DNA from: a virus
Length of the DNA: 56,908 bases
IMG/VR virus record: IMGVR_UViG_3300022413_000013
Span: 1-56,908 of that record
Direction: 5' to 3' (one strand)
The notes under the pieces are model-generated. The model was not told where the DNA came from, searched no databases, and saw only the letters and a list, made by a program, of their open reading frames with translations. Shown one piece after another: positions 10,301 through 56,908 of this stretch. How positions within the stretch are numbered: the stretch's first letter is position 1; each line of letters begins with the position of its first letter. A program made the position numbers and the translations under genes.

Positions 10301-10576
10301 CTACCGGCTACGCCGGATCTCTTCGTTGCTACCGCCGAGCAACCGTTTCTCTTTCCTAATCACGCGAATCCATCCGCCTTGACGGTATTGAATGCCGCCT
10401 CTTTCGAGGCCCCTCTCGATGCGGCGGATTGTGGCGGGCGTCGCCTTGTCAAAGGCGTCCTGTGTCTTTGACAGCCTGGCCAGCGTGGACCTCCCGACGC
10501 CACACAGGCCCGCGGCCGTCGAAAGGTCCATTTCCAAGCCCGCCAGAGCCATTCGCAACATTTTACGGGTAAACAT
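10301..10576 (-). CDS. XRE/Cro-type HTH transcriptional regulator
   Basis: In this 91-aa DNA-binding protein, residues about 16-55 (MDLSTAAGLCGVGRSTLARL to TIRRIERGLERGGIQY) form a five-helix XRE fold, with the recognition helix around GVGRSTLARL. The C-terminal part is basic. It is transcribed from a TTGACA-17-TATTAA promoter that contains two TGATCA palindromes and overlaps a divergent promoter facing the beta-barrel operon. It probably represses itself and that operon. Confidence 0.85.
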   Translation of the reverse strand: MFTRKMLRMALAGLEMDLSTAAGLCGVGRSTLARLSKTQDAFDKATPATIRRIERGLERGGIQYRQGGWIRVIRKEKRLLGGSNEEIRRSR

Positions 10577-13710: not shown

Positions 13711-14087
13711 CGGCCAACCCTCCCTTTTCATCGATCACGAGCACCAGATCGTGCACTCGGTAGTATTGCAGCCCGCCCGCTTTGTCGGTGCGCATCAGCG
13801 GCGACAGAACGGCTTCGGAGTCACTGTGATTGATCCGAAACTCATAGGTCGACATCTTGCGATCGTCGGCCATTTCTTGCTGGCATGTGAAGCGGATCAA
13901 GGCCGCCGGGACGGACACGCCGCCGACGTCGAGGCGGATCGGCACGCCGACGAAATTGCTAGGGTCGCCGCGGGCGACGTCGTCAGACTCGACAAAAAAA
14001 ATCCCAGGTAACCGCCTTTCCCCATGTAATCGCGGCGCCGGCCGAACCGGCGAAAAACCCTCGAAACTCCAGTCGCTCGCCGCTCAT
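13703..14087 (-). pseudogene. gene split by a +1 frameshift at a T8 homopolymer
   Basis: Reading starts at ATG 14087 (overlapping the previous stop by ATGA) and runs AITWGKAVTWDFF before a quick stop. The other frame resumes at VESDDVARGDPSNF and continues without a break to a stop at 13703. The switch falls exactly in eight T residues on the minus strand (8 A at 13994-14001 on plus). Seven T would give one 127-aa, beta-rich protein. An internal start at 13945 or 13855 would give a shorter product. It could be a sequencing error, a phase-variable tract or a real mutation. Function unknown; it lies in the par operon. Confidence 0.75.
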
Positions 14088-14356
14088 TGCTGTTTGTCCC
14101 AAATGTCCAACATGATCGCCAACAGCGCCGGCTTGCTTTTGCCACTGTCACGACACGCCGTCTCGAACCTGGTCTTCAGGCTCGCCGGCAAGCTCATGTT
14201 GCACTGTACGCGGTGCTCTTTGGGCGGTTCGGCCTCACGGCTTGGCATGCCAGAGCGTGAGGCGACTTCTTCCGCCGTCGGCTTTCGGCCCTTGGGCGCC
14301 GTCCGTACGCCGGTAAGGTCGAGCCTTTCCAAGCCGATTTCGCGTCGTTCTCTCAT
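14084..14356 (-). CDS. ribbon-helix-helix partner of ParA
   Basis: This 90-aa protein follows parA with an ATGA overlap. Residues about 52-90 ([20 protein letters not shown] followed by [15 protein letters not shown]) fit a ribbon-helix-helix fold: one beta strand then two helices. The N-terminal 50 residues are basic and probably disordered. Known: ParG, Omega and similar small RHH proteins are centromere-binding partners of small ParA ATPases and repress their own operon. Inferred here: it binds the CTAGC-type repeats near 15092, 15992 and 17897, stimulates ParA and regulates par. Confidence 0.8.
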
Positions 14357-15036
14357 GCTACAGCCCTCTCTTCGCTGATGATGTCCACAACCGCTTGCGT
14401 GAAGCCCCTGGCATTCTCGACCGCGGCCTTGATGTTGGTGACGGTCTCGGCTTCGATGTCTTTCAGCATCAAGCCGAGATCCCACATCGCGCCGAATGCG
14501 TCGCGGTCGTGAAGCTCGACCGGTACGACTGCCACGAGCTTGTTCTTCCGAATGCCGGCCGCAATCCGTCGAGCTGTTCGGCTTTCGGCGACGACTCGAG
14601 TCCTCGTGAATGCCAAGGCGAAGGGGATAACGCGCCTTTGCGCCCTGCCTTCGAGCGCGATCTCTTCGACGACCTTGCAAGCCATCTCGGCGTCGAGCCG
14701 CTGCTTTTGGGTTGGCACGAGCACCAGGTCGGCCCGGCTGATCGCGAACGAGGTGCGCCTCGACCCGATGCCTTCGAGGTCGACGATCACGAAATGGCTT
14801 CGCCGAGTCGCCTCGTCGATCTCGTCGATGATCGTGCGCTCGGAGTCGTTGGTAACGACCTCGAAGTTTGATGGAATGCCGACATAGCCGCCGCCATACC
14901 AAAAAGTGATAGGCTCGTTCGGGTCCGCGTCAATGATGGTGATCGGCACTTGCTCGGCGAGCTGTTGGGCGAGAACGAGTGCTGTCGTGCTCTTGCCCGA
15001 ACCGCCCTTTCCGTTCGCTACGACGATTGTCGGCAT
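14353..15036 (-). CDS. parA: ParA-family partition ATPase
   Basis: This 227-aa protein has a deviant Walker A KGGSGKST (10-17), Walker A' IIDADPNEP (34-42) and Walker [10 protein letters not shown] (about 81-89). It is the short form without an N-terminal HTH, typical of type Ib plasmid partition, which pairs with a small RHH protein just as here. It would segregate a low-copy circular prophage. The 76-base upstream gap carries a CTAGG/TAGCC palindrome (15092-15116) that is a likely operator or centromere. Confidence 0.9.
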
Positions 15037-15091: not shown

Positions 15092-15116
15092 CCTAGGCTA
15101 TAATAGGCTAGCCTAT
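15092..15116. promoter_or_regulatory. CCTAGG/TAGCC palindromic repeats upstream of parA
   Basis: CCTAGGCTA is followed by the perfect 14-bp palindrome ATAGGCTAGCCTAT at 15103-15116. It is one of three clusters of the same GCCTA/TAGGC element (also 15992-16010 and 17897-17918). CTAG is rare in most proteobacterial DNA, so such clustering is notable. It ends 56 bases before the parA start. Confidence 0.65.
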
Positions 15117-15961
15117 ATTGGACTTTGGACCTTCGGAAAGTTCTGGCCGGCAATGTGGAATTTCGCGACCGAAGCCCCCTCAATCCACATGTTCCAGCCC
15201 TTCACCAACAAGAAAAGCTTGGTACGCATGTCAAAGTTTCTCGCCGGGTCGTTAACCATTCGCAAAGAGGTCCGTCGAACGCAGAGGATCGGATCATCTT
15301 CGGCGAGACCGGCGCCGCTATTCAACTTCTGGAAATAATGCTCGACCAAGTCCTTTCCGACCTGTGCAAACGCGGCATAGCAGGCACCAGACGCCACGCC
15401 GAGCTTTAGGTCGCGGATGTCGTTGTAATTCCTCATTTGAGCAGCGCGTTGCCATAGATCATCGGGGATTGACTTGTAGAGCTTCCAAAAGTCCGGCGTC
15501 TTCATGTCCGACACTCGCTTTACGCCAGGTTTCTTCTCAAGTTCGCACAGAAAGGCATAGTTTCTGACCGCGTTCGCCACGCCGCCGAACCGCTTTATGC
15601 CGGCAATCCCCAAGACGTCGGCGAAGGTCCGTTTCTTGCCGGTATCGATCACCAGCATAAGGTCTTCATATCTGCCGACTGTAAAAACGAAAGGAAACGT
15701 CATGCCGGCCGCCATGACGGCGCGCATGCGGTGTTGACCGTCGAACATCCGGCCAATTTCGTCGACGATGATCGGCACGCCGGTTTGTCGCCACTCGCCG
15801 GCCCGCATTTCCTCGGCGTATGAGTCGACGTCCCGCTTTGACCACGATCGATTGATGCGCTGGCTTGCCACGAGGCACCGCGCCCTTTCTGGCGTTACAT
15901 CTTCGTCCCAGCGCTGGCCGACGACGTACGTCGGATTGATGACAATGGCGGGCTGATTCAC
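15113..15961 (-). CDS. ParB/Srx-fold (ParB-like nuclease domain) protein
   Basis: This 282-aa protein starts at GTG 15961 with GGAG eight bases upstream. The N-terminal 120 residues contain a ParB-like fold. EEMRAGEWRQTGVPIIVDE and the key motif DGQHRMRAVMAAG (about 74-86) correspond to the GxxRxxA CTP-binding or nuclease motif of ParB-like domains. The rest is helical. Many phages carry this family, and some members are recombination or DNA-modification related rather than true partition ParB. Its position directly upstream of parA, with CTAGC repeats on both sides, supports a role in partition or its control. Confidence 0.8.
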   Translation of the reverse strand: MNQPAIVINPTYVVGQRWDEDVTPERARCLVASQRINRSWSKRDVDSYAEEMRAGEWRQTGVPIIVDEIGRMFDGQHRMRAVMAAGMTFPFVFTVGRYEDLMLVIDTGKKRTFADVLGIAGIKRFGGVANAVRNYAFLCELEKKPGVKRVSDMKTPDFWKLYKSIPDDLWQRAAQMRNYNDIRDLKLGVASGACYAAFAQVGKDLVEHYFQKLNSGAGLAEDDPILCVRRTSLRMVNDPARNFDMRTKLFLLVKGWNMWIEGASVAKFHIAGQNFPKVQSPI

Positions 15962-15991
15962 GGCGGAAGCTCCGATTAGAGGGCGCGACTG

Positions 15992-16010
15992 CTAGCCTAG
16001 CCTAGGCTAG
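15992..16010. promoter_or_regulatory. CTAGC-type repeats upstream of the ParB-like gene
   Basis: Two CTAGC units run into the 14-bp palindrome CTAGCCTAGGCTAG (15997-16010). It lies 31 bases upstream of the ParB-like start, in the gap after the gene ending at 16020. It is the same element as at 15092-15116 and 17897-17918. Confidence 0.65.
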
Positions 16011-16019
16011 CGTTTGACG

Positions 16020-16283
16020 TCAAAAAAGCGCTGCTTGGCGCTCGTCGGGAAGATCGGGCAACTCGATGAACATCGCGCATTCTTCGTTGCCGAGACGGTC
16101 GCCCGATCGCGGGATCAGGACGTGAAGAAAGGATTCGGGCTTGTTGCATTCGTCGTAATTGTGCATGAAGTGCAACGCCCAAACGGCACAAAGCTTATCG
16201 GTCCGTTTCGGCCCATGGATGCAACGGGCGCAATAGGCCGCCTCGTACGCTTCGCCGGCATCGCCGTTTGAGAAATAACCCAT
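16020..16283 (-). CDS. small Cys-containing hypothetical protein
   Basis: This 87-aa protein is called from ATG 16283, which overlaps the previous stop. It has CARC at residues 19-22 with further Cys at about 33 and 45, an arrangement that could bind zinc or an Fe-S cluster. The conserved look of AAYCARCIHG and HNYDECNK resembles small phage proteins often found near replication genes. The function is unknown. Confidence 0.7.
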   Translation of the reverse strand: MGYFSNGDAGEAYEAAYCARCIHGPKRTDKLCAVWALHFMHNYDECNKPESFLHVLIPRSGDRLGNEECAMFIELPDLPDERQAALF

Positions 16284-16558
16284 CAAAACAAGCCCTTCAC
16301 GTCGCCGTCGTCCCAGGCCTTCAGGCCGCGGGACTCGAGCCATTGTTTGGAAATGCTGCGGGCGAAAGGAGGTAGGGCAGGGATGGCGGTTCGCGCCTTG
16401 TGAATGGCCGTCCAAAACACTTCCTCGCTGGGCATCTCGAACGCCGGATTGTATCGCTTGAAATGCGCGACGATCTTGTCTTTGTTGAGCGTCAACAAGG
16501 CTTCGTTTCGGTCGCGGTTATAAGCCTCGACCTCGGCGTCGTGCCTGGCCTGGTCCAT
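16283..16558 (-). CDS. hypothetical protein
   Basis: This 91-aa, helical protein starts at ATG 16558. The N-terminus is a charged helix (DQARHDAEVEAYNRDRNEAL) and the C-terminal half carries FARSISKQWLESRGLKAWD. It resembles small proteins that often accompany phage replication genes, but I cannot name the family. It is tightly packed with its neighbours in the minus-strand operon. Confidence 0.7.
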   Translation of the reverse strand: MDQARHDAEVEAYNRDRNEALLTLNKDKIVAHFKRYNPAFEMPSEEVFWTAIHKARTAIPALPPFARSISKQWLESRGLKAWDDGDVKGLF

Positions 16559-16561
16559 GGT

Positions 16562-16783
16562 TCACCCTTCCTCGAATTCGGCGATGTCGCTGGCCACCCT
16601 CATGAGCTGGCCTAGCTTGTCTGGATTTGGCCAGGCGACGACCGACGCCTTGATGCCGCTCCGCGTCGAAAGCCACCATTCCGGGTCGCTATCGATTTGC
16701 ACGGCGTAGACGCCGCCGGTCGGCATGTGGCGAAGAACACGTGACCCGGAAGGATCATCGGCGAACTCGAAGTCGCCGCTCAT
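16562..16783 (-). CDS. small hypothetical protein
   Basis: This 73-aa protein starts at ATG 16783, overlapping the MazG-like gene stop by ATGA. It looks like a small beta domain (TGGVYAVQIDSDPEWWLSTR) with a C-terminal helix. Family not recognised. Confidence 0.65.
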   Translation of the reverse strand: MSGDFEFADDPSGSRVLRHMPTGGVYAVQIDSDPEWWLSTRSGIKASVVAWPNPDKLGQLMRVASDIAEFEEG

Positions 16784-17097
16784 GATTGCGGGTCCTCGCG
16801 TTCGGCGTCGGCGCATATTTCCGCCATGAAACGCATAGCCATTGCCGCAACCTGCATCGCCTCTGTCCTCATCGCCGCCAGATCCCGATTTTCACGTTTC
16901 CTTTTGATTTCTTCCCAAAGCTCGTCGACTTCCTCTTGCAACACCGCGAAGCCTTCGTGTGCGCTATTGAACGGCTTGCGCTTCGAGTGCTGCGTTAGGA
17001 ATTCCGCAAAGGACTCTAAGCAAGCGTCGGCAACCGCCGGCCCGTAACGACCTAAAACCTTTCCGAATTCATGCTCTGCAGGATCATCGTTAGGCAT
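16780..17097 (-). CDS. MazG-like NTP pyrophosphohydrolase domain protein
   Basis: This 105-aa protein starts at ATG 17097. Residues 47-92 contain SAHEGFAVLQEEVDELWEEI then EAMQVAAMAMRF, an all-alpha arrangement with the EExxE metal motif (EEVDELWEE) and a second helix as in MazG/dUTPase-like proteins. Known: such phage proteins hydrolyse non-canonical or signalling nucleotides. Inferred: nucleotide-pool control. The second metal-binding helix is less canonical (E-x-x-Q), so activity is not certain. Confidence 0.7.
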   Translation of the reverse strand: MPNDDPAEHEFGKVLGRYGPAVADACLESFAEFLTQHSKRKPFNSAHEGFAVLQEEVDELWEEIKRKRENRDLAAMRTEAMQVAAMAMRFMAEICADAEREDPQS

Positions 17098-17674
17098 CAA
17101 CAACCGCCCCCCACCTGATTAGGGTTTCCCAAGCCTCGTCGGCCGACGTGCAAACGGCATGCCTCACGCCATGGTGAAGGCACCAAAGCCGATGAGTTTT
17201 CTGATTTGGACTGAGCAACCGCACCGGGTCGACGGCGCCGTCGTCGATCTTGAGCTCGATCACGCCGCCGCCCCATGACGCGCCCATGAAAAACCAGTCT
17301 GCGACGCCTGGAAACATGCCGATATATTTGGCCAAAGCGCCGGCCCCTTTGCTGCGCTTGCCTTCGTTGGCGACATGATGCGCAATGCAACGCGAGCGGC
17401 ATTCTAGCTCGGCTAGCGCGATCCGGTCGGCAAGCTCGGCGCTGATCGCGTCTTCGGGTCCGACGTCGCCGGCGAACGCGAAGCGCGCCAAGATCGTATC
17501 GAGCCATGGCCGGCGGCCGTCACTCGGTAGGGTAGGGGATGCTTTACGCCGTGTCCGCTTTTCGGGCTTTTCTTGTATGCTCTTGCGCTTGATCTCGACA
17601 TCGAGCGCGGGCGTCAATATGCCGGCTTGGCGCGCTTCTTCGATGGTCATTCGGTTTGACGGGTTAAGCGTCAT
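17090..17674 (-). CDS. VRR-NUC domain nuclease
   Basis: In this 194-aa protein the C-terminal 85 residues form a PD-(D/E)xK virus-type replication-repair nuclease. PGVADWFFMG supplies the Asp, VIELKIDDG gives the E-x-K, and LSPNQKTHRLWCLHHGVRHA followed by SADEAWETLIRWG completes the fold. The N-terminal 90 residues are basic and partly disordered. VRR-NUC proteins occur beside phage replication genes and may act as structure-specific or Holliday-junction nucleases. It overlaps the MazG-like gene by 8 bases. Confidence 0.85.
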   Translation of the reverse strand: MTLNPSNRMTIEEARQAGILTPALDVEIKRKSIQEKPEKRTRRKASPTLPSDGRRPWLDTILARFAFAGDVGPEDAISAELADRIALAELECRSRCIAHHVANEGKRSKGAGALAKYIGMFPGVADWFFMGASWGGGVIELKIDDGAVDPVRLLSPNQKTHRLWCLHHGVRHAVCTSADEAWETLIRWGAVVDA

Positions 17675-17895
17675 GCCGGCACGGCCTCGCGAGCTTCGCG
17701 GCGCCGCCTGGCTTCCGCCTTAGCGTCGGTCAATTCCATCCAAAACTCGAAGGTTCCGAGCGACGGGCAAAGAGGCCGCCCGCTCGCTTCGCGCCAGGTT
17801 CCGCCGTCGAAATAGCCCTCGACGATCGGCCCGTCTTCGAAAAAGATGCCGACGCTTCGCGAATTCGCCGGCACGTGTGGTAGGTATTTCTTCAT
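17671..17895 (-). CDS. small hypothetical protein
   Basis: This 74-aa protein starts at ATG 17895, with CTAGC repeats starting two bases upstream where a ribosome site would be expected, so its translation may be controlled by them. A small beta domain (SVGIFFEDGPIVEGYFDGGT) is followed by an Arg-rich helix. It overlaps the VRR-NUC gene by ATGA. Family unknown. Confidence 0.65.
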   Translation of the reverse strand: MKKYLPHVPANSRSVGIFFEDGPIVEGYFDGGTWREASGRPLCPSLGTFEFWMELTDAKAEARRRREAREAVPA

Positions 17896-17896
17896 A

Positions 17897-17918
17897 CTAG
17901 CCTAGCCTAGCCTAGCCT
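17897..17918. repeat. tandem CTAGC repeats
   Basis: Four perfect tandem CTAGC units plus a partial fifth (CTA) occupy 17897-17919. It is the longest of the three GCCTA/TAGGC clusters and the only one in purely direct orientation. It lies at the junction between the sulfotransferase-like gene stop and the start of gene 17671-17895. Confidence 0.75.
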
Positions 17919-18507
17919 AAAACAACGGGTGATCAAGTTTCGAGGCCTCTTGCACATAGCCGCTATGATCGGGCGATCGGTCCCAGATGGTGCGCGCCAT
18001 TCGATCGACCTTGTCGCCGTCGAGTTCGAGCAAACCGCCGATTTTCTCGGCGACGTACGCGGGATTTCTGACGAGCATTTCGAACGTTGTGTGCACGTGC
18101 TTTGGATAGATCCTCACGGCATCGAGAAAGCGCCGCTCTTCCTTGCGAATATGAGCTTGAAGCGCCCTTGCGTTCGTCGTCACATGCTGGCCGCACGTCT
18201 TCAACAACGTGAGCTGCGATCGCGCTTGCTGCCGATGGTCTCTGGTCAAGATGATCACGCGAAAATCTCGCGTGGTCGGCAGGCTGGCGCGGTGCGGATC
18301 GAGAAGCTTGAACGCGGTTTGCGGGTCCATCTGGTCGATCCACGCATGATCGTCCGGCAACTTCAACATGTCGCCGCTTTCGAACGACCAGCCTACCTTG
18401 TCGTAGTCGCAATGGACCTTAATCCCGGCGGCGTAAAGCATCTTCATAACAGCCGTTGTCCCGCAACGACCAAGACCACAAACAACGATTAGATAATCTT
18501 CGATCAT
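17917..18507 (-). CDS. sulfotransferase-like P-loop protein
   Basis: This 196-aa protein starts at ATG 18507. The N-terminal strand and loop IVVCGLGRCGTTAVM (about 7-21) match the PAPS 5'-phosphosulfate loop of sulfotransferases (G-x-x-R-S/C-G-T-T). IILTRDHRQQARSQL (about 99-113) resembles the 3'-phosphate motif with Arg and Ser. A nucleotide kinase-like P-loop is less likely because the loop lacks GKS/GKT. Substrate unknown; known candidates for this fold are sugars, lipids and small molecules. It is unusual in a replication operon. Confidence 0.7.
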   Translation of the reverse strand: MIEDYLIVVCGLGRCGTTAVMKMLYAAGIKVHCDYDKVGWSFESGDMLKLPDDHAWIDQMDPQTAFKLLDPHRASLPTTRDFRVIILTRDHRQQARSQLTLLKTCGQHVTTNARALQAHIRKEERRFLDAVRIYPKHVHTTFEMLVRNPAYVAEKIGGLLELDGDKVDRMARTIWDRSPDHSGYVQEASKLDHPLF

Positions 18508-18943: not shown

Positions 18944-19494
18944 GGCCAAGTCCCTTCGTTGGGCGGCACACGCCGCAAACATTCGACCGCGTCCCACACC
19001 GGACCGTCGGGCAAGCCGATGTCGCGGCGCTTGCCGAGGGCCAGGTCGAGCGCTTGAAACAGGATTTTCTGGCGATCCGCGGCGCCGGTTCGGCGAACGT
19101 GCGTGGTCATCACGCCGCGATACTGTTCGGTGATCCGCCTTGCCCATTCGAGAACGCTAGTCGCCCTGATGCGCTCCCAAGGGTCGTCGTAGCCGAGCGC
19201 CAGCGGCGCCGACTTGCTCGGCAAGGCGTCGACAGCTTGCGACCAGGCCGGCCACCATTCGCAAGTCTCGCCGAGCTTTTCGAGAGCGTCGACGACGAGG
19301 GCGGGCGACCAGTCGAGCAAATCATCCGTCCACAGCTCGAAGATGGCGTCGCGGTCCTTCTCCTGATCCTTCGTATGTTTCGTCCGGCTCCACAACTTCA
19401 GGATCGCGAGCATCACGAGCTGCTCGCCTCTGTCGGCGGCTGTAGACTCGTCGGATCGAATCGGCGGCGCTTCCGCCGACATCAAAATTGCCAT
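18940..19494 (-). CDS. candidate helicase loader or replication accessory protein
   Basis: This 184-aa helical protein lies directly after the initiator gene, as lambda P follows O. The WSPALVVDALEKLGETCEWW segment, with repeated Trp and conserved helix pairs (AWSQAVDALP, DDPWERIRATSVLEWARR), resembles replication accessory proteins that count or load helicase. I see no Walker motif, so it would be a P-like loader rather than a DnaC ATPase. The start could be ATG 19494 or 19482. Either way it overlaps the end of the initiator gene by 160-173 bases, which is unusually long. Confidence 0.6.
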   Translation of the reverse strand: MAILMSAEAPPIRSDESTAADRGEQLVMLAILKLWSRTKHTKDQEKDRDAIFELWTDDLLDWSPALVVDALEKLGETCEWWPAWSQAVDALPSKSAPLALGYDDPWERIRATSVLEWARRITEQYRGVMTTHVRRTGAADRQKILFQALDLALGKRRDIGLPDGPVWDAVECLRRVPPNEGTWP

Positions 19495-20338
19495 CGTTCG
19501 GTTTCCTTTCGCTCGGCGCGTGCAGCTCGTCGTTCCAACAGCCTTTGTGCAGCCACGTCGCCGGGTGTTTGATCGAGACGTCGGATAGCCGGCACCAGGC
19601 CATGTAGCGCTCGACGCCGGCGCAAAGCTCGGCGTGCGTCGCCTTGCCGGCTTTGATCACCTGGCGGTAACGGCGCTCCCCTTCGGCCTTGGCGATCTTG
19701 GTTCCGGGGATCGACCATCGCGCCCAGAAATCATCAAAATCGTATTTCTTGGGCTGGCGATTGATCGGGCCAGATGGCGGTTTTCGACCATCTGGCCATA
19801 AGTTTGATTGAGGTTCGGAATCTCTAGAATCTGACTCTGATTCAGTAAGAGACTCAGACTCCCTAAGAGTCTTCCCTTTTTTAAGAGTCTTAGAGTCTTC
19901 TTTATATATGTGTGGGTTAAGTGTGGGTTGGGTCTGGGTTAAGTCTGGGTTAGAGTCTGGGTTAGAGTGTGGGTTAACGCCATCCGTAGAAGCCTGATAA
20001 GTGTCGTAATTACATATAGTTACGATGGTAAAGTGTGGGTTAGAGTGTGTGTTGATGAGTGAGTTAGATTTTAGCACTTTTAGCAAAGTCTTAGCTTTTT
20101 GGTGGGTTAGGTCGCTATCTTTTGCGATCCCGCGGACCGTTATGAGACATTGCCCCCTGGCGAGCTGAATCGGCTCTCTTGAGCGCGGGCTCGCGGCCGT
20201 CGTTGCTTTCCATACGGCCTTGCGCACGAGATATTGAAAGAGGCCTTGCAGCGCAAATTGCTTGTGCAAAATTGGGTTGTCGTCGATCGCGCGCCAGTTA
20301 AGGACAAAGCCGCCGGGTTTGGGGTGCCGATCAGCCAT
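19322..20338 (-). CDS. replication initiator, lambda-O / DnaT-like
   Basis: This 338-aa protein is called from ATG 20338 (frame open to 20590; 20377 also possible; no strong ribosome site). The N-terminal 120 residues (FVLNWRAIDDNPILHKQFAL, then LARGQCLITVRGIAKDSDLT and FTIVTICNYDTYQ) form the winged-helix domain of phage initiators. A low-complexity Asn/Pro/Ser/Glu linker, encoded by iteron-like repeats, follows. The C-terminal YDFDDFWARWSIPGTKIAKA domain resembles DnaT/DnaD-type helicase contacts. Predicted role: bind the internal origin and recruit helicase. Confidence 0.85.
   Translation of the reverse strand: MADRHPKPGGFVLNWRAIDDNPILHKQFALQGLFQYLVRKAVWKATTAASPRSREPIQLARGQCLITVRGIAKDSDLTHQKAKTLLKVLKSNSLINTHSNPHFTIVTICNYDTYQASTDGVNPHSNPDSNPDLTQTQPTLNPHIYKEDSKTLKKGKTLRESESLTESESDSRDSEPQSNLWPDGRKPPSGPINRQPKKYDFDDFWARWSIPGTKIAKAEGERRYRQVIKAGKATHAELCAGVERYMAWCRLSDVSIKHPATWLHKGCWNDELHAPSERKPNDGNFDVGGSAADSIRRVYSRRQRRAARDARDPEVVEPDETYEGSGEGPRRHLRAVDG
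19911..20108. other. ori: candidate replication origin: iterons inside the initiator gene
   Basis: T(G/C)TGGGTT units start at 19911, 19922, 19933, 19944, 19956 and 19968 (11-12-base, helically phased spacing), then at 20034, 20046 (one mismatch) and 20101 (one mismatch). An AT-rich block with repeated TAAGAGTCTT (19864-19873, 19882-19891) and TTTATATATG borders them. Lambda's origin lies inside gene O in the same manner. Confidence 0.8.
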
Positions 20339-20540
20339 GCGCAACGCCGATCGGCCCGGCGACGAGCGCCAGGCCATAGCAAAAAAGGTTCCGTCGGATT
20401 GCGCAAAAAAGCATTTTCTGCTTTTGTCTTTCCTACGAAGAGAGATTTTGAACCCCGTCGGCGAGCCAGGCCGCGGGGTTCTTTCTTTGGGAATCACCCC
20501 TAAGAACCCCATACCGGAGTCAAGTCGATTTGAAACCGCG

Positions 20541-20894
20541 CTACGCGGTCGCGTGCCTGAGTGCTTCGGCGTCTCCTGCCTGTGATCCAACGGGGAACAT
20601 TTCGACCTGCTCGTCGAGCTGCAAAATCTCGCGAGCCGCGTCGAATGTGCTGAGATAGAAGGCGCGTTGCTTGGCGTTTTTGGTGCGCTTCAGGCGCCGA
20701 ACCTCGTCAATCGCTTCGGTGTTGAGGCCCTTCGCTTGCGCCCTCTTCCGATGCTTTTCCAATAGCCCGACATGGCCTTTGTAGACATCCTGCGACGCTT
20801 GCGCCTCGCGTTCGAGCTTGGATTGTTCTTCGATGTAAGTGGTAATCAGATCCGGGTCGGTGTTCTCTTCGGAGACGATCAGCGGTCGCGACAT
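20541..20894 (-). CDS. coiled-coil protein upstream of the initiator, unknown
   Basis: This 117-aa protein is called from ATG 20894, preceded by AGAGGGG; the frame is open upstream to 21098 but that part runs through the terminator. It is largely helical with charged repeats (EEQSKLEREAQASQDVYKGH, LLEKHRKRAQAKGLN), indicating a coiled coil. First gene of the replication operon. Family unknown. Confidence 0.75.
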   Translation of the reverse strand: MSRPLIVSEENTDPDLITTYIEEQSKLEREAQASQDVYKGHVGLLEKHRKRAQAKGLNTEAIDEVRRLKRTKNAKQRAFYLSTFDAAREILQLDEQVEMFPVGSQAGDAEALRHATA

Positions 20895-24506: not shown

Positions 24507-24980
24507 ATGGACAGTGTCGACAGCAATTCCAGTAATAGCTGGATTGCCCGTGCTGCGGCACTGTCCACCGAGTCAATTAGACTGCCACGGGTAGCTTGCC
24601 TATGTGCCGCCTGTTTCGTCTTCGGGGTTGCAGTGATGTACTTTCGACCAGGCCCGCCGACTCCGGGCGTGGTTGAAGCGGAGATCCCGGCGCGGAGTGT
24701 GGGAACGCTCGAACAATGCCGGGCTGATCTGGACGAAGCCGAACACATCATTGACCTGTCGCATGGTGCGGCGGGCGTCGTGGTTGGCGAATTAGCAAAA
24801 TGTCTAGGAAGGACAATAGGTCATGATAATAGCGTTCACGTCGAGAAAAGGCGGCGTCGGCAAATCGACGATGGCGCGGACCCTGGCGATAGCGATGAAA
24901 CAGGTCGGATTGAACCCGCTTCTCGCCGATCTCGACCCGCAACAGTCGACGTCCGACCGTTGGGCAAAGCGACGCCTTGA
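24507..24980 (+). CDS. putative membrane-anchored protein, weak
   Basis: This 157-aa reading frame starts at ATG 24507 after ACGAGG. One membrane segment (VACLCAACFVFGVAVMYF, about 29-46) is followed by a Pro-rich linker and a periplasm-type helical region with two Cys (LEQCRADLDEAEHIIDLSHG to LAKCLGR). The last 158 bases overlap the ParA-like gene in another frame and encode an Arg-rich non-natural tail, so the natural protein may depend on the first 105 residues. If not real, 24484-24822 would hold no gene. Confidence 0.45.
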   Translation: MDSVDSNSSNSWIARAAALSTESIRLPRVACLCAACFVFGVAVMYFRPGPPTPGVVEAEIPARSVGTLEQCRADLDEAEHIIDLSHGAAGVVVGELAKCLGRTIGHDNSVHVEKRRRRQIDDGADPGDSDETGRIEPASRRSRPATVDVRPLGKATP

Positions 24981-25845
24981 CCTGGTCGACGAGGCGGTTC
25001 ACGTCGACACGCATCGGTTTAGGCAGGCGAGGCAACTTCGCGAATGCCATGAGACATGGGACCACGTGATCGTTGATTGTCGGCCTTATGACAATGTCCT
25101 GATTCGTGATCTGGCCGGCGAGGCCGACGTCATCTTTCTGCCGAGCGGACCCGCCGACGACGACGTCGAGCCTACCCTCGATCTGCACAAGATCTTGCGC
25201 AATGAGCACACGACACAGGCGCGTGTTGCCGCTGTTCTGAACAACGTCGGGTCCCTGCCTGAGTGTTGGCGAGCCCGCACCGTGTTCGAGCTTGGCAAGT
25301 GCGAGCTGGTGCCGGCGGCGATGCCTGGACGGATCAGCTATCGGTCATGTTTGAACGCTGGTCGGACGCTGCAGGAAAACACGCGCGGCAACCTTCATGC
25401 GCGCTGCAACAAAGTGCTCGAAGGGATGTTCGAAATCATCGGGCAAGCAGCGCAAGGCGAGTATCGCCCGCTGACATGGTGGCCAGAGGAAGAAGCGACC
25501 ATCGAGGACGAGGCCGACGAGGGCGCCAAGATCGAAATCAATGTGCCGCCCGCGCTCGCGGCGACCGCCAGGTCGACAGAAGCGGTTGAAGTGGCGCCGG
25601 CGGAAGAGACGCCGGAACCGCCGGCACCAAAGCGCAAGAGGACGACCAGGCACGCAAAGGCAGAGACCGAGGCGACGCCGACCGAGAAAAAGGTCGAGCC
25701 GCCTAAGCCGCGGCGCCAGCGGGCGACCAAAGGGGCCAAGCCAGCGGCGGCAAAGGCGCCGGCGAAGCGGAAACCGGCGGCCAAGAAGACGGCGGCAAAG
25801 CCCGTTCGGCGAGCGACAAAGCCTGAAACCGCAAGCGCCGCTTAG
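24823..25845 (+). CDS. ParA-like ATPase with a histone-H1-like C-terminal tail
   Basis: This 340-aa protein has deviant Walker A KGGVGKST (9-16), A' LLADLDPQQS (33-42) and Walker B HVIVDC (81-86) in the first 210 residues. Residues about 260-340 form a Lys/Arg/Ala/Pro-rich tail (PKPRRQRATKGAK, AKRKPAAKKTAAKPVRRATK) like bacterial H1/AlgP proteins. An acidic spacer (220-240) joins them. Known: ParA proteins bind nucleoid DNA; a fused basic tail would strengthen this. No RHH or ParB partner follows. It is distinct from the parA at 14353. Confidence 0.85.
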   Translation: MIIAFTSRKGGVGKSTMARTLAIAMKQVGLNPLLADLDPQQSTSDRWAKRRLDLVDEAVHVDTHRFRQARQLRECHETWDHVIVDCRPYDNVLIRDLAGEADVIFLPSGPADDDVEPTLDLHKILRNEHTTQARVAAVLNNVGSLPECWRARTVFELGKCELVPAAMPGRISYRSCLNAGRTLQENTRGNLHARCNKVLEGMFEIIGQAAQGEYRPLTWWPEEEATIEDEADEGAKIEINVPPALAATARSTEAVEVAPAEETPEPPAPKRKRTTRHAKAETEATPTEKKVEPPKPRRQRATKGAKPAAAKAPAKRKPAAKKTAAKPVRRATKPETASAA

Positions 25846-32528: not shown

Positions 32529-32795
32529 ATGACCGAGCTTAGGCAAGTAAAGCGCCAGCGCATGGATTTGTACATTAATCAACGTCGGACAAGCGTTCGC
32601 ATCGAAAAAGTCTTCTCGGACTATCTCAAAGAGCGGGCGGCAGATATGCAAATATCAAAATCGAGGCTTGTCTCGCGAATAGTGTCGCAATACGAAAACA
32701 ACGCGAACAGATCGGCGGCCGTGCGCACTTATTGTTTTGAAGACCTTCAGGCGCGATTGGAAAAAGCGGAAGCGAAAGCCAATGCCAAGACTTAA
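32529..32795 (+). CDS. ribbon-helix-helix DNA-binding protein 1
   Basis: This 88-aa protein has residues about 20-52 (RTSVRIEKVFSDYLKERAAD then MQISKSRLVSRIVSQYENN) forming an RHH fold (strand, helix, helix), of the RHH_4 type, ending NRSAAVRTYCFEDLQARL. A second RHH protein of the same layout follows (32782-33036), overlapping by 14 bases. Probable DNA-binding homo- or heterodimer regulators. Confidence 0.8.
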   Translation: MTELRQVKRQRMDLYINQRRTSVRIEKVFSDYLKERAADMQISKSRLVSRIVSQYENNANRSAAVRTYCFEDLQARLEKAEAKANAKT

Positions 32796-33036
32796 GCGCG
32801 TCGAAGTGAGGATCAACGGCCATCGAACCGCGATCCAATTGGAAACGCCATTTTGGCGCTATCTCGACGAGATCGTCGCCGCCAGGGGAACCACGCGAAC
32901 CAAGCTCGTCAACGAAGTCCTCGCCGCCGACCCGGACAAAACGAATATGTGCTCGACGCTTCGGACGTTCGCGCTCGCGCACGCCGAACGCCGGGCGAAT
33001 GGCTGGCGCCTCGACCAGGAGATTGCAGCATCATGA
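32782..33036 (+). CDS. ribbon-helix-helix DNA-binding protein 2
   Basis: This 84-aa protein is called from ATG 32782. HRTAIQLETPFWRYLDEIVA then TTRTKLVNEVLAADPDKTN and STLRTFALAH fit RHH_4, with the conserved LE-x-FW pattern. It is a paralogue of the previous gene by design though sequence identity looks low. It may heterodimerise with it or control the operon, perhaps via the GTCAC/GTGAC operators at 34043-34093. Confidence 0.8.
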   Translation: MPRLKRVEVRINGHRTAIQLETPFWRYLDEIVAARGTTRTKLVNEVLAADPDKTNMCSTLRTFALAHAERRANGWRLDQEIAAS

Positions 33037-35077: not shown

Positions 35078-35229
35078 CCGTTCTTTATGTCTTGATCCTT
35101 TCGATTGAGCCCGACGACGGTCGAGGTCTGGTCGAACTGTCCGAGCTTGCTCCTGAGTGCTTTCGAGCGTTAGGGCCAAGCGATTCGTTTTGGCTCGTCC
35201 CCGGCACGATTAGCCCGGCCGACGATTGA
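35074..35229 (+). CDS. 51-aa small protein
   Basis: Starts at ATG 35074 in ATGA overlap with the previous gene, stops at TGA 35227-35229, sharing TGATG with the next start. Hydrophobic N-terminus (VLYVLILSIE) then acidic and globular. Bracketed by coupling overlaps on both sides, so it is likely translated. Function unknown. Confidence 0.6.
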   Translation: MTVLYVLILSIEPDDGRGLVELSELAPECFRALGPSDSFWLVPGTISPADD

Positions 35230-35450
35230 TGGCGAAAGACAACCCACGAGGCGAGGCCCGCAAAAAAGCGGGCTTCGCCACCCAGCAAGAGCTTGCCGAT
35301 TGGCTCGAATGTAGTCGCAGCAAGATCGGCAACTTTGAAGCCCTCGGCTCGGCGCATCGACCGCCGCCGCCCTGGTACGACAAAGTGATCGACGTTCTGA
35401 TCGAAAACCGCGCCCTCAAGGCCGCCAAGAAGCGAAAGCGCAAGAAATGA
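35229..35450 (+). CDS. small helix-turn-helix-like protein
   Basis: This 73-aa protein is called from ATG 35229 (a TTG one codon earlier is also open). Residues about 15-35 (GFATQQELADWLECSRSKIG) look like an XRE HTH, followed by a NFEALGSAHRPPPPWYDK segment and a basic end (KAAKKRKRKK). Probably binds DNA; may regulate the operon. Confidence 0.65.
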   Translation: MAKDNPRGEARKKAGFATQQELADWLECSRSKIGNFEALGSAHRPPPPWYDKVIDVLIENRALKAAKKRKRKK

Positions 35451-56322: not shown

Positions 56323-56832
56323 TTACGCCCTCATCAACCGCGAGCCTCGGATAACAAGCTCTTTGATCCGCCGATCGGCTTCCGGGTATTTGCGAAAAGT
56401 TTGCTGGACTCCGCTTTGGCCGTACTCGGTTTCTTCGACGAGCGGTCCGACGCGCTCGACCTTGCGCACGACATGGCCGCCCCTGTCGTCGAAGGTCGGA
56501 TCGGGCGCCAAGCGGGCGCCTAGCGAGCGATACGCATAGAAAGCGCACGCCTCTTGAACTTCGATAGGGACGTTGTCGGCGATCCGGCCGTCGCTGTAGT
56601 AGGCTTCGGAGCGCGGCCAATCGAGCGCCTGCGTCGTCAGCTTGCGATAGCCGACGAAAGTAAAACGCGTATCGAGATAGCGCGTCGCGCGCTGTATAGC
56701 GTTTTGCTGAACAGTATCGTTATAAAGAACGATGCCAAGGCCTTCGACTTCCATTAGCTCTTGAAAGAACGCAAGCGTGCAATAAGCGGTCGCCGTCGCT
56801 GATCCGGTTCCGGTTTCTACAACAAACGGCAT
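56323..56832 (-). CDS. head-tail adaptor protein (DnaT-like/gp6 type)
   Basis: This 169-aa protein starts at ATG 56832. GSATATAYCTLAFFQELMEV, NAIQRATRYLDTRFTFVGYR and ALDWPRSEAYYSDGR, then IPIEVQEACAFYAYRSLGAR match the phage adaptor family sometimes labelled putative DnaT-like. It binds the portal from below. Its first 21 codons lie in the right-hand terminal repeat, so the gene is intact across the circular junction. Confidence 0.88.
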   Translation of the reverse strand: MPFVVETGTGSATATAYCTLAFFQELMEVEGLGIVLYNDTVQQNAIQRATRYLDTRFTFVGYRKLTTQALDWPRSEAYYSDGRIADNVPIEVQEACAFYAYRSLGARLAPDPTFDDRGGHVVRKVERVGPLVEETEYGQSGVQQTFRKYPEADRRIKELVIRGSRLMRA

Positions 56833-56894
56833 TGTTTATTATGCGCCTTCTGTGTCCTGGCCTAGTAAGACCTCGCGATCAAAATTAGGCCACG
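56769..56894. repeat. terminal direct repeat, right copy
   Basis: Identical to bases 1-126. Removing one copy gives a circle of about 56.8 kb. The last 14 bases (56895-56908) lie outside the repeat and do not match the continuation of the left copy. Confidence 0.95.
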
Positions 56895-56908
56895 ACACAG
56901 AAGGCGCA
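56842..56908. other. 14-bp inverted repeat at the contig end (foldback)
   Basis: TGCGCCTTCTGTGT at 56842-56855 is the reverse complement of the final 14 bases (ACACAGAAGGCGCA, 56895-56908). The left copy of the region (74-87) is not followed by such an end. The most likely cause is an amplification or sequencing foldback; a natural hairpin end is less likely. Confidence 0.7.

Follow-up and report, generated by a model that had tools for sequence, protein, structure and literature searches.

Short arrays of TA steps in a 5-bp register at a ParA-RHH cassette and two other gene starts of a temperate phage: candidate partition and operator sites

The window analysed here, a stretch of 56,908 bp, is one virus record (IMG/VR record IMGVR_UViG_3300022413_000013) and belongs to a temperate phage. 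It encodes a portal protein, a terminase and a major head protein, as well as a tyrosine integrase, RecE/RecT-like recombination proteins and a DnaD-like replication protein. On the minus strand, between 14.0 and 18.5 kb, lies a run of small genes, including those for a ParA ATPase (parA), a 90-aa protein of predicted ribbon-helix-helix (RHH) fold (rhh) and a ParB-like protein. Three short repeat arrays, termed A, B and C, are found in this region (Table 1) and form, together with the parA-rhh cassette, the subject of this report.

The three arrays obey one rule: each is a series of pentamers NNTAN, with a TA step exactly every 5 bp. The first-pass annotation of this DNA had described three clusters of a CTAGC/TAGGC element, in palindromic and tandem forms, around the par and replication genes, and both forms are indeed present at these places. 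Arrays A and B contain the 14-bp palindromes ATAGGCTAGCCTAT (15103-15116) and CTAGCCTAGGCTAG (15997-16010), respectively, and array C is a perfect 5-bp direct tandem (4.6 copies with 100% matches by TRF); the 5-bp TA register is a rule beyond what that annotation stated. The pentamers CCTAG and GCTAG are both present in A and B, and CCTAG is common to all three arrays. Array A lies about 56 bp upstream of the start codon of parA (15036) and array B about 30 bp upstream of the GTG start of the ParB-like gene (15961), while array C, about 1 bp upstream of gene 17671-17895, adjoins its ATG. B and C are placed directly upstream of two genes other than parA and rhh, and all three arrays are within 3 kb of the par genes. 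The TAG stop codon of the ParB-like gene falls inside array A, and that of the preceding, sulfotransferase-like gene (17917-18507) inside array C. Beside array B there is also a 12-bp perfect palindrome, TTTGACGTCAAA (16013-16024), containing the -35-like hexamer TTGACG that stands just upstream of the array on the minus strand.

In the whole 56.9-kb genome, in-register chains of at least three TA steps occur only in A, B and C (5, 4 and 5 units), the simulated mean being 1.0 chain per genome. The pattern TA-N3-TA-N3-TA-N3-TA (TAx4) is likewise confined to the three arrays, with an expectation of 0.03 per genome, and hexamers of the CTAGGC family reach a maximum of 7 per 20 bp, as against 1-2 in 60 Markov simulations. 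These counts bear out the earlier observation that no equally strong cluster exists elsewhere. On the other hand, the argument that CTAG is a rare sequence carries no weight here, since the 89 copies of CTAG in this genome, versus 103 expected from 3-mers, are no marked deficit. The genome-wide count of CTAGC proposed with the annotation puts the single element at chance level (72 observed versus 61 expected), with the clusters still far above simulation. It is the clustering, rather than the CTAG or CTAGC counts, that is the signal. A 6-mer repeat score did not single out array A within the window, because this array is only 25 bp long.

Table 1. Repeat arrays and neighbouring genes of the partition region
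Feature	Position	Strand	Description
Array A	15092-15116		CCTAG GCTAT AATAG GCTAG CCTAT, 5 pentamers; proposed par operator and centromere
Array B	15991-16010		GCTAG CCTAG CCTAG GCTAG, 4 pentamers; proposed second RHH site
Array C	17896-17920		ACTAG CCTAG CCTAG CCTAG CCTAA, 5 pentamers; proposed third RHH site
parA	14353-15036	-	227-aa Walker ATPase; PHROG ParA-like 1.1e-23, Pfam VirC1 3.2e-14
rhh	14084-14356	-	90-aa RHH protein, proposed centromere-binding protein and repressor; ATGA overlap with parA
ParB-like/DGQHR protein	15113-15961	-	phrog_5931, 1e-47; between A and B; proposed target gene, not binder
First gene downstream of array C	17671-17895	-	function unassigned
Second gene downstream of array C	17090-17674	-	phrog_824, 2.3e-22

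The parA-rhh cassette shows the testable defining features of type Ib partition systems. The ParA is within the size range of the class, 192-308 aa (PMC3235114), and has no N-terminal DNA-binding domain; its Walker motif (KGGSGKST) is intact and located at residues 10-17, leaving no room for an N-terminal helix-turn-helix (HTH) domain. The small RHH protein (class range 46-131 aa) is encoded directly downstream, and direct and inverted repeats precede the par operon, here as array A and likewise in relatives. Sequence identity of the ParA is 43% with its counterpart in Aurantimonas phage AmM-1 and 46-49% with ParA proteins of alphaproteobacterial plasmids. A ParA relative at E < 1e-15 was found in 341 plasmid records, mostly proteobacterial, and a gene for a small, RHH-like protein follows parA across 37 related loci, which were drawn from viral contigs, genomes and phage records. 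Phages with a ParA-Ib and RHH pair, such as pVv01 and D6, are already known. The make-up of the cassette thus suggests a role in partition.

The structure predicted for the RHH protein (AF2) has two confident helices (core pLDDT 95-98) preceded by an extended stretch, and its top Foldseek matches are CopG (TMt 0.84), ParG and Arc, with E-values that are weak, as for any 40-residue fold. The Pfam RHH_10 match is below the cut-off (18.6 versus 27 bits), a single-sequence phmmer comparison with the sequences of solved structures gave nothing useful, and the profile of the RHH family matches ParG, Arc and CopG weakly. Since a tblastn search with the RHH protein gave no match among plasmids, its relatives were reached via parA. 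In an alignment of 24 RHH proteins, including that of the window, invariance is limited to the initial Met and to Arg40 in the tail. The TP228 ATPase is stimulated by an arginine in the tail of ParG that serves as a finger (PMC5389482), which makes Arg40 a candidate arginine finger. The strand of the RHH protein reads V-Q-C-N-M-S, with a Gln-x-Asn motif at Q51-x-N53. Arc contacts the T and A of its TAGA box through Gln9 and Asn11 (PMC12645479), and by our reading of the two sequences the Gln and Asn of the RHH strand would occupy the same places. Loci whose RHH protein has a Q-x-N strand show a median array TA observed/expected ratio of 1.36 (18 loci) versus 0.94 in the others (36 loci), with p = 2e-4 after removal of near-copies, in a comparison that was chosen with Arc in mind and corrected for kinship in part only.

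Relatives of the cassette also carry short-repeat arrays upstream of parA, the sequence of which varies by lineage. The 200 bp upstream of parA rank among the top 5% most repetitive stretches of the locus in 29 of 38 loci, and among the top 1% in 21 of them. The nearest relatives have periods of 5 and 10 bp, and the TA register appears when their arrays are read as pentamers; in the first set of loci, chains upstream of parA contain 88 TA units in total versus 1.5 expected. On the ParA tree, from which the Frigidibacter locus L135 was left out owing to its broken parA frame, the window falls in the group with TA arrays as sister to the rest, with a support of 100/98 (bootstrap/SH-aLRT). It belongs there both by its ParA and by an upstream TA run of at least four at 5-bp spacing, namely a run of 5 at -79. 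Arrays in the 5-bp TA register are present in seven of the nine rows of this clade. The runs upstream of parA count 6 and 12 units in Frigidibacter (L135), 9 and 10 in Bartonella (L138, L145), 6 and 4 in Labrenzia (L137) and 4 to 6 in Sagittula (L136, L143, L144). A further clade member (L023) has, immediately upstream of parA, an AT run rather than a TA chain in this 5-bp register, and in another (L148) no TA chain was found upstream of parA; outside the clade, L103 has a TA run of 5.

When whole records were scanned, every TAx4 match was upstream of parA in five plasmids of the clade. In two AT-rich Bartonella plasmids the majority of the matches listed were upstream of parA, and one of these plasmids has a further array just after rhh. 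The presence of 5-bp TA arrays directly upstream of parA in plasmids of the same clade, and almost nowhere else, supports the suggestion of the first-pass annotation that the clusters are a centromere and operators. As to their binder, that annotation had named either the RHH or the ParB-like protein. The RHH protein is favoured by its predicted fold and by the comparative evidence, and is likely to bind the arrays, because the sister plasmids carry the same arrays at parA without a ParB-like gene. Other ParA-RHH lineages show runs at about one full helical turn (10-12 bp) or at a 17-bp period. The 17-bp period is that of ACCGGAT elements upstream of parA in one lineage of loci (L028, L030, L037, L038, L041 and L104), and is unlike the 5-, 10-, 11- and 12-bp periods elsewhere. 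In a Gluconobacter contig (L105:48-682), parA-rhh is preceded by 90-bp tandem repeats that each contain GCTACC/GATAGC elements spaced about 7 bp from one another; these repeats look like an iterated centromere.

Taken together, we consider it probable that the temperate phage carries a type Ib cassette whose RHH protein binds array A, as operator and centromere, and also arrays B and C. The protein would recognise TA-centred pentamers spaced every half helical turn (5 bp), either with one dimer per pentamer, on alternating faces of the helix, or with one dimer per two pentamers. Dimers side by side on array A would repress parA-rhh, and there their N-terminal tails, with Arg40, would stimulate the ParA ATPase, by which replicated genomes would be moved apart. 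The same protein would also bind arrays B and C, in front of the ParB-like gene and of the operon that begins with gene 17671-17895, most likely repressing transcription there; A, B and C may jointly form a split centromere. A wider proposal, which we put forward more tentatively and hold as possible rather than probable, is that the centromere-binding protein of the clade reads a half-turn code of TA steps with dimers on both faces of the helix, and that the phage centromere has been split into three operator-sized pieces at early-gene promoters, coupling segregation to expression and replication.

Several points weigh against the proposed binding and partition roles. The phage has an integrase, so its prophage need not be a plasmid. 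No clear sigma-70 consensus promoter could be recognised at any of the three arrays. A spacing of 5 bp leaves less room than the 7-bp repeats of the omega protein of plasmid pSM19035, and the RHH strand has Ser at the position of Arc Arg13. A Mantel test of motif against RHH similarity was positive but weak (rho 0.12; 3/500 permutations), and the region upstream of parA in the window itself is not TA-enriched overall (0.78). In the sister plasmids the arrays are at the par locus, and nothing there corresponds to B and C, which lie 0.9 and 2.8 kb away. The arrays are short, 4-5 pentamers as compared with up to 12 in a row in L135, and thus closer to an operator than to a long centromere. Moreover, the ParA of the window is a long branch (1.27), so that the support value overstates how firmly its exact place in the clade is known. 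In the comparison with other phages by ParB-like, ParA, major head or recombinase protein, no close phage relative was found except one 4.9-kb contig, and a search of public viral contigs for the literal repeat TAGCCTAGCCTAGCCTA gave 18 loci, none sharing the par region and only two sharing a weak terminase match with the window.

Among the alternatives, the one that fares best is that the arrays lost, or never had, a partition role, and that the phage took over the cassette solely as a repressor system, autoregulated and directed at early genes. The operator size of the sites, their location at gene starts and the integrase fit such a system, and par-like proteins alone are no proof of a plasmid prophage (PMC8026635). 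Yet both an intact ParA, Walker motif included, and the invariant arginine of the RHH tail have been kept, as expected of a working ParA-RHH pair, and we regard a purely regulatory cassette as unlikely, with roughly one chance in several. Somewhat less likely still is that the partition cassette includes array A alone, while B and C are operators of a separate phage regulator with a similar pentamer as its target, for example the RHH-like protein at 32737-33036 or a lysogeny repressor. The confinement of the sister-plasmid arrays to the par locus is consistent with this, and the phage does have other candidate DNA-binding proteins, namely the RHH-like one and HTH-like ones at 10301-10576 and 35226-35450. 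A separate regulator would, however, have had to arrive independently at an identical sequence and spacing: no in-register TA chains other than A, B and C exist in the genome, and the three have pentamers in common and all lie in the vicinity of the par genes.

That the ParB-like protein is the binder, the arrays being its parS or operator sites, is very unlikely compared with binding by the RHH protein. Its gene is located between A and B, and homologues of the protein have been annotated either as HTH DNA-binding or as ParB-like nuclease-domain proteins; but whole-record searches of seven sister plasmids that carry the same arrays gave no homologue (0/7), no TA chains are found at four loci with its homologues in other phages, and the arrays occur at parA-rhh where no ParB-like gene is present. 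This part of the earlier suggestion is accordingly disfavoured. Finally, an origin as chance or compositional repeats, with which the ordinary counts of CTAG and CTAGC would agree, has virtually no probability left, being already refuted by the TAx4 statistics (three occurrences, all directly upstream of gene starts), by the excess of TA units at the relatives and by the whole-plasmid scans.

Some further features of the genome were observed. Downstream of array C, gene 17671-17895 has no match in PHROGs, Pfam or phage records, and gene 17090-17674 is, as we take it from its sequence, a VRR-NUC-like nuclease. The sulfotransferase-like gene next to array C (Pfam Sulfotransfer_3, 2.5e-6) is situated in the phage early region. 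A second ParA-like gene (24823-25845; phrog_164, 3.6e-27), on the opposite strand, encodes a long Lys/Ala/Pro-rich tail and has no in-register TA array upstream. The small RHH-like protein at 32737-33036 is a candidate judged by its sequence and has no PHROG match; the two small HTH-like proteins were also judged by sequence. Inside the DnaD-like replication gene (19322-20590) there is a 22-bp/11-bp tandem repeat at 19913-19976 (TGGGTTAGAGTC-like, 2.8 copies of 22 bp), a candidate set of iterons, by which the origin would lie inside the initiator gene as in lambda O. At the ends of the record (1-140 and 56769-56908) about 125 bp are repeated, and the last 15 bp or so form a stray tail, as in a circular or permuted genome with an assembly artefact.

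Type Ib centromeres are known from a handful of plasmids, and their sequences look unrelated. In the literature searched, with subscription journals mostly outside its scope, we found no description of a half-turn TA register or of RHH centromeres built of 5-bp units or pentamers. A simple rule for one clade, that is, a TA step every 5 bp together with a Gln-x-Asn strand, would allow par sites to be found by sequence alone in plasmids and phages. The phage offers the same code at other gene starts, so that sites there may tie DNA inheritance to gene control, and a single small protein with three 25-bp sites would suffice to test this link. The proposed dispersal of sites to other genes has precedents in pSM19035 and, with an unrelated ParB, in N15; what seems to be new is the half-turn register and the split sites, in a phage.

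Of the known systems, pSM19035 offers a close parallel. There the RHH ParB (omega) binds repeats that overlap the promoters of copS, parA (delta) and parB (omega), and at least four contiguous repeats are needed for activation of the ParA ATPase (PMC9499535). Both systems have an RHH protein as actual or proposed binder, short units that are not palindromic and stand in direct as well as inverted order (WATCACW, 7 bp, in pSM19035), and repeats at the par genes as well as at further genes (copS there; those of B and C here). They differ in the unit, 5 bp here versus 7 bp there, and in the number of units per site, 4-5 here versus 7-10 there; in addition, delta and omega are transcribed separately, and the Gram-positive system is that of a plasmid rather than a phage. 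The type Ib par loci of alphaproteobacterial plasmids (ParA plus "stability/partitioning determinant" in Sagittula, Labrenzia, Frigidibacter and Bartonella; pTAR class) share with the phage a homologous ParA, an overlapping or adjacent RHH gene and, in the sister-group plasmids, the same 5-bp TA register upstream of parA. Their arrays, however, are longer and confined to the par locus, and the flanks of the TA step are mostly GGTAC/GATAC, with GGTAG/CCTAA/CCTAT in Sagittula. The ParF-ParG-parH system of TP228 also pairs a ParA with an RHH centromere-binding protein that has an arginine finger in its tail, and its upstream repeats serve as centromere (parH) and operator (OF) (PMC5389482, PMC5016525); unlike the phage arrays, these repeats have AT-rich spacers and occur at one par locus only. 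In P22 Arc, a 21-bp operator is bound by a dimer of dimers (PMC12645479). One array of the phage is of about this size, and the RHH fold and the Gln-x-Asn strand, which in Arc reads TA in the TAGA box, are held in common, whereas the Arc system has no ParA, Arg13 of Arc is replaced by Ser here, and the phage arrays repeat every 5 bp. Like the phage described here, the plasmid prophage N15 is temperate and has a partition system, Sop, with separate sites, and its centromere sites are found at phage promoters. It has four such sites, IR1-IR4 (PMC7205306), but these are long inverted repeats bound by an HTH-type ParB (SopB) in a type Ia system of a linear plasmid, whereas the phage would use short TA arrays and a type Ib cassette.

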